Part shown: piece after piece, positions 48,191-50,847 of the stretch
How positions within the stretch are numbered: position 1 is the first letter of the stretch
How the letters are laid out: the number at the start of each line of letters is the position of its first letter
From: an uncultured Pelagibacteraceae bacterium
GTDB lineage: Bacteria; Pseudomonadota; Alphaproteobacteria; Pelagibacterales; Pelagibacteraceae
Reading direction: 5' to 3'
NCBI GenBank assembly: GCA_902570785.1
Contig: CACFZK010000006.1
Coordinates: forward strand, 1 to 64,000
DNA length: 64,000 bases
Translations under genes and position numbers: made by a program
Notes under the pieces: model-generated
What the model was told of the DNA's origin: nothing
Databases searched by the model: none
Seen by the model: the letters and a program-made list of their open reading frames with translations, nothing else

Positions 48191-48832
48191 ATGGGTAGAA
48201 AAAAGAAGATAAAAAAAACAAAAATAGTCAAAAAGAAAAGTGAAAAAAAAATAAATCTGCCTGTTAAATCAACTTCGGCAGATCAAAAGGTAGAAATAAA
48301 GAAAATTAAAAAACAGCCAACAGAGAAAAAAATTTATAATATAAATGATTATGTGGTCTATCCAAAAGATGGGGTAGGTAAAATTGTGAGTGTTGAAAAG
48401 GCACTTATAGGTGGTATAGAAAGTCAAAATTATAAAATTGAAATATTAAAAGATAAATTGACACTTCAATTGCCAATTAATAAACAATCTCTTTTGAGAC
48501 CAATATGCTCAACTCATCAAATTAATAAGTGTGTTTCAATTCTTAAAAGCAAACCAAAAGTAAAAAGAACTATGTGGAGTAGAAGAGCACAAGAATATGA
48601 GCAAAAAATAAATTCTGGTAAAATTTATGAATTAGCAGAAGTGGTAAGGGACCTAAACAAAAATACAAATACTATTGCAGATCAATCTTACAGTGAAAGA
48701 CAATTATTCGAAAAAGCCTACGATAGATTGGAAAGTGAGTTTGAAGTAGTACTAAAAATTTCTCAAGAGGATGTTAAAAAAAGAATGGATAAAGCGCTAG
48801 GAAGGGAAGAAAAGCCTCAAGAAATGCAATAA
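48191..48832 (+). CDS. CarD/CdnL-family RNA polymerase-binding regulator with Lys-rich N-terminal extension
   Basis: YNINDYVVYPKDGVGKIVSVE and helical C-terminal CarD domain. Confidence 0.88.
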   Translation: MGRKKKIKKTKIVKKKSEKKINLPVKSTSADQKVEIKKIKKQPTEKKIYNINDYVVYPKDGVGKIVSVEKALIGGIESQNYKIEILKDKLTLQLPINKQSLLRPICSTHQINKCVSILKSKPKVKRTMWSRRAQEYEQKINSGKIYELAEVVRDLNKNTNTIADQSYSERQLFEKAYDRLESEFEVVLKISQEDVKKRMDKALGREEKPQEMQ

Positions 48833-48835
48833 AAA

Positions 48836-48873
48836 AAAACGCTCTTTCCGTGAGATTTGGAAAGAGCGTTTTT
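48836..48873. terminator. Bidirectional rho-independent terminator
   Basis: AAAAACGCTCTTTCC ... GGAAAGAGCGTTTTT inverted repeat between convergent ORFs. Confidence 0.9.
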
Positions 48874-48885
48874 AGAGAAAACTAT

Positions 48886-48957
48886 TTATCTTCTTCTTCT
48901 TCTTTTTTTAGCTTTCTTCTTAGCCTTTTTTTTCTTTTTTTTACGTCTTTTAGCCAT
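48886..48957 (-). CDS. Putative 23-aa polycationic microprotein MAKRRKKKKKKAKKKAKKRRRRR
   Basis: Minus strand GGGAGATAACG-ATG gives a good SD; open frame to TAA; own terminator downstream; not in the ORF track. Confidence 0.55.
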   Translation of the reverse strand: MAKRRKKKKKKAKKKAKKRRRRR

Positions 48958-49164
48958 CGTTATCTCCCTTTTTTTTAAACAAATCGAAGTGATTCGTTAA
49001 TTGATTCAACTTTAAGTTTTTTTGAATAGATGTCAAACATAAACTAACTGGTTTTTTTTTAAAAAAAATAAAAAAAATATTTTTTTATCCAAATAAAAAA
49101 TAACTTAATAAAAGCAAGTAAAATCAACAGTTATTTAATTATTTTTTAGATTTAGAAATAATAA

Positions 49165-50847
49165 TTAAAAATAAAGATTTTCTAAATCTTGTTTATACTT
49201 TTCAATAATTTTTTTTCTTTTTAATTTAAGTGTTGGAGTCATTAATCCGTTTTCAATTGTGAATTCTTCCTCAATTAACTTAAACTTTTTAATTTTTTCT
49301 ATTATTGACAACTGTTTATTAAAATTTTCGATAATACTTCTTATGGTTGAATCATTTTTATCTTTTTTTTCAACTACAATAAGTGCAACAAGATAATTTT
49401 TTTTATCTCCATAAACTAAACACTGTTTTATTTTTTCATCATTACAAATAGTATTTTCTATTTTGCTTGGTGAAATATTATCCCCACCATGATTAACAAT
49501 AATATCTTTTTTTCTATCAGTAATTTTTAAATATCCATTTAAATCTATCTCGCCAATATCGCCAGTATGTAGCCAACCGTTTTTTAATATTTCATTTGTT
49601 TCTTTTTCTTTATTCCAATATCCAAGCATTACATTTTCTCCTTTAACCAAAATTTCACCATCATCTGCTATTTTTACTTGATTTGTTTTAAAAGGGGGTC
49701 CTACAGTTTCAACTTTGATATGACCCGGCAAGTTACAGCTTACAACTGGCGATGTTTCTGTTAATCCATATCCTTGTAAAGTTGGAAGGCCAACTGCATT
49801 TAAAAATTCACCAACATTTTTATCAAGTGCCCCACCTCCTGAAACAAAAGCCTGTAAATTTCCACCAAACTGTTTTTGAATTTTTTTTCTCACTAAAATT
49901 TGACATATAAAATTTGTTAGTTTTTCATGAAACATTAATTTCTCATTATTTAATGTTTTTTTTCCTAATTTAATTGTTTCATTAATTAGCACTTTTTTAA
50001 GCCCAGATTGTTTATTTAAATTTACAGAAATTTTATTGTATAAATTTTGATAAAATCTCGGAACTGCTGTCATTATAGTGGGTTTTGCAATAGACATATT
50101 AGATAAAAGCTTTTCTAAGCTTTCTGCATAGAAAACTTTAGCCCCGAGTAATATTTGTATAAACTGAACAGCGTGCTCATAGGAATGTGAAAGAGGTAAC
50201 CAAGTTAAAAATACCGGGTTTCTTTTACTTACCAATGGTTTCAATAAATCGTAAGCACCTTCACAGTTGGCTAAGATACCTCCATGGCTTAAAATTACAC
50301 CTTTTGGATTGCCTGAAGTGCCGGATGTATAGATAATACAGGCTGGTGTATTTCGTTTTAAATTTTTATTTATTTTTTTTTGGAAGTCCTTTTCATTTAG
50401 TATATCTGATATTAATAAGCTTTGGGAATCGATTTTTTCAAAAGAAATAATTTTTTTCACTTCGGGATTAATAAAATTTTTTATTTTTTTAAATTGATTT
50501 TGATTTGAAACAATAATTAAAGAAGGCTTACAATCGTTTAAAATATATTCATAATCGTTTTCAGAATAAGTTGTGAATATTGGAACTGATATTCCGCCAG
50601 CATTCATTATAGCAATATCTGAAACTAGCCAGTAAGGTCTATTCTCTGAAAGTATTAGACATCTGTCTCCATCATTTATTAAAGATTTTATTTTGTGAGA
50701 AAGTTTAAAAATTCTAGTTGTAATATCTTCCCAATTGTAGGATGGTTTGTCAGGTTTCAGCCATTTTAAGAATGGTTTTTTTCCCTCAACTTCTTCTGAT
50801 TTTTTAAAGTATAACTCAACTAGGCTATTTATTTCCGATAATTTCAT
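49165..50847 (-). CDS. AMP-dependent synthetase/long-chain acyl-CoA ligase
   Basis: CIIYTSGTSGNPKGVILSHGG, GYGLTETSPVVS, GWLHTGDIGEID. Confidence 0.92.
   Translation of the reverse strand: MKLSEINSLVELYFKKSEEVEGKKPFLKWLKPDKPSYNWEDITTRIFKLSHKIKSLINDGDRCLILSENRPYWLVSDIAIMNAGGISVPIFTTYSENDYEYILNDCKPSLIIVSNQNQFKKIKNFINPEVKKIISFEKIDSQSLLISDILNEKDFQKKINKNLKRNTPACIIYTSGTSGNPKGVILSHGGILANCEGAYDLLKPLVSKRNPVFLTWLPLSHSYEHAVQFIQILLGAKVFYAESLEKLLSNMSIAKPTIMTAVPRFYQNLYNKISVNLNKQSGLKKVLINETIKLGKKTLNNEKLMFHEKLTNFICQILVRKKIQKQFGGNLQAFVSGGGALDKNVGEFLNAVGLPTLQGYGLTETSPVVSCNLPGHIKVETVGPPFKTNQVKIADDGEILVKGENVMLGYWNKEKETNEILKNGWLHTGDIGEIDLNGYLKITDRKKDIIVNHGGDNISPSKIENTICNDEKIKQCLVYGDKKNYLVALIVVEKKDKNDSTIRSIIENFNKQLSIIEKIKKFKLIEEEFTIENGLMTPTLKLKRKKIIEKYKQDLENLYF

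Follow-up and report, generated by a model that had tools for sequence, protein, structure and literature searches.

A Lys/Arg microprotein gene convergent with carD

The window, a stretch of 64,000 nucleotides from an uncultured Pelagibacteraceae bacterium, carries carD on its plus strand (48191 to 48832; CarD_TRCF_RID and CarD_C domains). Convergent with carD, a short open reading frame on the minus strand (48886 to 48957), hereafter the microgene, starts with ATG, ends with TAA and encodes a 23-residue microprotein, MAKRRKKKKKKAKKKAKKRRRRR. This product consists of Met, 3 Ala, 12 Lys and 7 Arg, has a mass of 2.99 kDa and contains no acidic residue; translation confirmed the position and composition given by the first-pass annotation. 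No other ATG-initiated ORF of at least 20 aa in the 64-kb window has Lys and Arg at 70% or more of its residues, and no such ORF was seen in 60 replicates of locally matched Markov simulations.

The upstream neighbor, on the same strand as the microgene, is an AMP-binding acyl ligase recognized by domain match (49165 to 50847, minus strand), and an acyl ligase occupied this place in all 30 of the long Pelagibacteraceae loci. The 207-nt gap between the ligase and the microgene contains a promoter-like site and the leader of the microgene. A Shine-Dalgarno (SD) sequence, GGGAG (48964 to 48968, minus strand), lies 6 nt from the ATG, in agreement with the earlier description of its sequence and spacing. 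A 5'-leader hairpin is predicted at 48978 to 48998 (minus strand) with the fold AACGAATC-ACTTC-GATTTGTT, in which the motif CGAATCA occupies positions 48990 to 48996. Farther upstream, a putative -10 hexamer, TAAAGT (49009 to 49014, minus strand), and a putative -35 hexamer, TTGACA (49031 to 49036, minus strand), were assigned by consensus match and together agree with the consensus at 10 of 12 positions, with a 16-nt spacer. The TTGACA is visible at the matching place in most of the Pelagibacteraceae leaders printed. Since the two hexamers stand at a normal distance, the hairpin would sit near the 5' end of the mRNA.

The microgene and carD share a bidirectional intrinsic terminator (48831 to 48873, acting on both strands), whose stem, AACGCTCTTTCC / GGAAAGAGCGTT, lies between the two stop codons and is flanked on each side by A-runs and T-runs. 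This bears out the strong common terminator that had been proposed, which a simple scan missed because its loop is 9 nt long. A comparable stem-loop was also seen 3' of the microgene ORF in the relatives printed.

Conservation and constraint of the microgene

Loci were gathered with carD as the anchor from Pelagibacteraceae, from a sister family within Pelagibacterales and from other Alphaproteobacteria, and were counted as distinct loci with readable DNA beyond carD. The first-pass annotation had suggested a search of SAR11 genomes for polybasic ORFs beside carD; a convergent basic ORF was found there in all 69 Pelagibacteraceae loci, intact in 68, and in all 22 sister-family loci, where every copy was intact. 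An SD-like motif preceded each of the 90 intact copies (68 from Pelagibacteraceae and 22 from the sister family). The start codon in the 68 intact Pelagibacteraceae copies was ATG in 67 and GTG in 1, and their products were 20 to 50 aa long with no acidic residues. The sole broken copy (L114, in draft genome G035) has an A7 run close to its 3' end lengthened by one A, either through a sequencing error or through a true frameshift. A broken frame or lost SD in close relatives, which had been named as the mark of a poly-A accident, was therefore not the pattern found, as frame and SD were kept in 68 of 69 Pelagibacteraceae loci. Conservation across the order extends from the position and frame of the ORF to its SD, leader hairpin, promoter-like hexamers and terminator, and it gives good support to the real transcription unit that had been postulated.

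The microgene was absent in 14 relatives, nearly all drafts, in which carD was not matched either, and pattern hits in these genomes belonged to other proteins; the joint absence would follow if one region holding both genes were missing. No basic ORF was present in the collected flanks of carD loci from other Alphaproteobacteria orders. A search of 279 genomes outside Pelagibacterales with the short-form pattern gave no credible case, although divergent or relocated members would escape it; the single match (G307) came from the N-terminal end of a 272-aa protein that is unrelated. A pattern for the N-terminus of the long form described below had no match in the class, in a search set that held no positive control. 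A protein search of the class with an 85-aa form also gave no match, but this result was given no weight, as the search had no positive control and low-complexity correction removes such matches. Viral contigs contained no match to the microgene.

The linkage to carD throughout the order raises the question of whether the peptide acts, as a basic microprotein regulator, on the CarD/RNA polymerase system or on another acidic partner. This is highly improbable, in that the microgene is convergent with carD and transcribed separately, the other Alphaproteobacteria lack a basic ORF beyond carD, and the peptide has no partner-specific residues.

Selection on the reading frame was evident at the codon level. 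In the ten gap-free aligned end codons, parsimony placed 3, 23 and 14 A<->G changes at codon positions 1, 2 and 3, respectively, and the scarcity at position 1 gave a P of 1.3e-4; as these figures come from few substitutions counted by parsimony in related, nonindependent sequences, they are strong but not exact. A<->G changes at position 1 of AAA or AGA would yield Glu or Gly, and the 3 that were seen are parts of Lys-to-Ala changes. Lys and Arg are exchanged as freely as in a synonymous change, and charge is almost never lost; the charge is kept and the residue is not. The longest A-run averaged 7.3 nt, compared with 10.85 nt (standard deviation, 0.25) in sequences simulated with the genome codon usage. 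The runs are shorter because AAG is used more in the microgene, at 25% compared with the 14% expected from genome codon usage. This interruption of A-runs is consistent with selection that opposes slippage where a Lys-rich frame is translated. The frame is conserved together with its start, its SD and the constraint on its codons, and the comparison of loci shows that the microgene is real, that it encodes a protein and that positive charge is selected for. We are highly confident that it is a conserved gene specific to Pelagibacterales.

The motif CGAATC(A) was present in 90 of 90 intact leaders, 36 to 63 nt upstream of the start codon, and was followed by a hairpin. In most loci the motif itself pairs with a downstream GATTCG or GATTTG. 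Some genera have the stem displaced downstream, with compensating changes in its two arms (CACATAA/TTATGTG versus CACTTAA/TTAAGTG). Pairing reached 90%, compared with 25 to 52% in slid controls; covariation did not exceed the shuffle control, because the 5' arm of the hairpin is invariant. The pairing pattern supports but does not prove a role as RNA, and a DNA operator is possible. The pattern is gene specific, occurring at the microgene alone in 12 of the 19 genomes of the window's genus that were searched. When folded, two leaders from Pelagibacteraceae and one from the sister family allowed the SD region to pair with sequence upstream of it. The hairpin may serve in mRNA stability, in translation control or as a DNA operator. 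Comparison with Rfam returned sub-threshold chance matches alone. No mimicry of rRNA by the leader motif was seen at the 16S genes, as CGAATCA is absent from both of the SAR11 16S loci searched, including some 1.5 kb of flanking DNA. In the sister-family leaders (L128 to L149), a second conserved stretch, AACCTCTAACTAAAC, lies between the hairpin and the SD; the region of the SD is rich in G, and base pairing between the two is possible.

Long and short forms at one locus

The product encoded at the carD locus of the sister family, MEELKVIFAKARKKAKKKAAPKKKRKAAKRKPAKKK..., is 40 to 99 aa long, contains KAAP, AAPKKK and KRKPAKKK repeats and is preceded by the same leader motif. Its N-terminus, MEELKVIF, is nonrepetitive, and in the case examined the DNA carries tandem repeats of about 42 and 57 nt. 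In the carD tree, with the sister family as the outgroup, a basal Pelagibacteraceae group (support, 0.66) has forms of 29 to 50 aa, some with AAKKKAPAKK repeats, and a clade of 57 loci that includes the window (support, 1.0) has forms of 20 to 29 aa, mostly 20 to 25. The form of this main clade has a fixed MAKRRKK start, a short middle part with K(A/G) spacing and an Arg-run end. A Lys/Ala/Pro-rich repeat tail of variable size is thus found in the sister family and in some basal forms; the form in the window keeps the K/A part alone.

These forms bear on a further explanation, in which the conserved product is an RNA (a 3' end, an antisense RNA or a small RNA convergent with carD) and the open frame is incidental. 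The structured leader and the convergent terminators shared with carD would suit such an RNA. The frame, however, survives changes in length, each of the 90 intact copies has an SD and a start, the A<->G changes follow codon position, and AAG codons break the A-runs. Together with the sister-family coding versions and their nonrepetitive N-terminus, these observations make an RNA product extremely improbable.

The comparison shows that long and short forms have both their locus and their leader motif in common. Their homology is argued from this position and leader, the sequences being too simple to prove common descent. Loss of repeats in the ancestor of the 57-locus clade would be the simplest account. 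The opposite direction, growth of short into long forms, is a possible alternative because the outgroup is a single family. The graded natural series from 99 to 20 aa bears on how short a histone-tail-like protein selection still keeps.

A histone-tail-like polycation as the proposed function

The first-pass annotation had proposed a mini histone-like, ribosome-associated or nucleic-acid-condensing peptide. The histone-like, condensing part of this proposal gained indirect support from the longer KAAP- and AKKKA-repeat versions found at the same place and with the same leader motif in the sister family and in basal genera. We consider it reasonably probable, judging from sequence features, that histone-tail-like binding of nucleic acids is the way in which the microprotein works. 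With 19 basic residues and neither acidic nor large hydrophobic ones, a 23-aa peptide can hardly fold and will bind polyanions. It would then be a probably disordered Lys/Arg-rich polycation, equivalent to a free-standing tail of the histone H1 type expressed from a single-gene unit, and would bind the phosphates of nucleic acids without sequence specificity. An H1-tail-like protein as ancestor, or as a relative of shared origin, makes DNA the likely target. The polycation would help to neutralize and condense DNA, most likely in the nucleoid, alongside tail-less proteins of the HU family, and the gene-specific 5' hairpin may stabilize the microgene mRNA or set its translation. In this picture, we infer that the peptide is disordered, that it acts mainly on DNA and condenses it, and what the hairpin does. 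A strongly cationic peptide of this size would bind to RNA, to ribosomes or to membranes as well.

HU-family proteins were detected in 31 of 31 genomes searched, and the open frames in one of these (G000) are 96 to 99 aa long, which leaves no room for H1-like tails. With HU-family proteins that lack tails, a separate tail-like peptide acting in trans would be reasonable. No Pfam or NCBIfam model, including those of the histone H1, Hc1, Hc2 and AlgP types, matched the 23-, 38-, 50- or 85-aa forms at an E value of ≤1.

Several known polycations resemble the microprotein in part. Protamines and other Arg-rich sperm proteins of eukaryotes are tiny, nearly pure Lys/Arg polycations with Arg runs. 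The microprotein is like them in size, purity and Arg runs but differs in being Lys dominated, in being the product of a bacterial gene with an SD and in not being a protein of terminal differentiation. Among bacteria, lysine-rich H1-like tails are known on proteins such as AlgP (PMC9239181), and Hc2 changes in size by repeat number (PMC2848022), as does the microgene product. The sister-family form shares Lys/Ala/Pro repeats (KAAP and KRKPAKKK) with AlgP of Pseudomonas, Hc2 of Chlamydia and the HupB tail of mycobacteria, and by analogy with these H1-like tails a disordered DNA-binding tail would be expected in the microgene product too. In contrast to the H1-like proteins, the microgene product is free-standing, and the Pelagibacteraceae form, of only 20 to 50 aa, lacks a folded domain, contains hardly any Pro, starts with a conserved MAKRRKK-type sequence and in most cases ends in an Arg run; it has no Pfam match and a unique locus beyond carD.

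The AlgP tail also suggests another role, that of an organizer of polyphosphate granules. The H1-like KPAA tail of AlgP is required for even spacing of these granules in Pseudomonas, and polycations condense with polyphosphate (PMC9239181). However, PPK1 was detected in only 4 of the 12 relatives of high quality, none of the 41 genomes searched gave a PPK2, and five genomes (G062, G063, G064, G067 and G071) carry the microgene with neither enzyme detected. Polyphosphate as the main role is highly unlikely, because among carriers PPK1 is patchy and PPK2 absent.

The main rival to a nucleoid function is a possible, though unlikely, role as a small ribosome- or rRNA-associated protein that is translationally autoregulated via the leader hairpin. 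bTHX and the mycobacterial bS22/bL37 are very basic proteins of 20 to 35 aa from SD-driven small genes, and both their residues and their length are kept. The microgene is like these genes in product size, basicity and dependence on an SD; its conserved, gene-specific 5' hairpin resembles the leaders of autoregulated ribosomal proteins, and the leader is able to pair with the SD in some clades. It differs from them in keeping charge alone, with a length that varies up to fivefold. A range of 20 to 99 aa set by repeat number and a free exchange of Lys and Arg are unlike a fit to a specific rRNA pocket, aromatic or Gly landmarks are absent, and the leader motif is missing from the 16S loci. NCBIfam, whose sensitivity is low for 23 aa, gave no match to a ribosomal protein of the bTHX or COX24/bS22 type at an E value of ≤1. 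Ribosome association, the other function named by the earlier annotation, is less likely because length varies so widely and charge alone is conserved.

Returning to the histone-tail-like polycation, we put forward tentatively, as possible rather than probable, that SAR11, the most abundant bacteria of the ocean, reduced a histone-H1-type protein to a protamine-like polycation of 20 to 25 residues. This may be the smallest dedicated chromatin protein known, with its own single-gene unit and gene-specific leader hairpin, and would be invisible to gene finders and trypsin proteomics. The common gene-calling limit is 90 nt. An ORF below this limit whose product is cut to nothing by trypsin would, if translated, miss most annotations and proteomes; an extremely abundant group of bacteria would then possess a conserved gene short enough to escape both gene finders and standard proteomics. 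The microprotein is a concrete candidate for DNA compaction in very small, streamlined cells.

Surveys of SAR11 intergenic regions in strain HIMB5 (PMC6429828) and P. ubique (PMC2704228) describe unannotated short ORFs confined to SAR11, and the microgene appears to be of the same short, unannotated, SAR11-confined type. The main-text passages on these short ORFs name neither a Lys/Arg ORF nor a carD neighbor; overlap with their supplementary short ORFs is possible, and priority on the bare ORF is not certain. Our literature search found no named histone-like microprotein of SAR11.

Two minor observations were also made. Across the Pelagibacterales genomes sampled, PPK1 was distributed patchily and no PPK2 was detected. 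Lys/Arg-rich N-terminal tails were seen on CarD itself (window positions 48191 to 48260; MGRKKKIKKTKIVKKKSEKK...) and on an acetate-CoA ligase (L198, from position 1501, and L200; MAKRSKKKKSKKRVKKLFKKRKSYKKKRK...), in which the tail extends about 45 aa ahead of the enzyme. Proteins of SAR11 may carry polybasic tails more widely.
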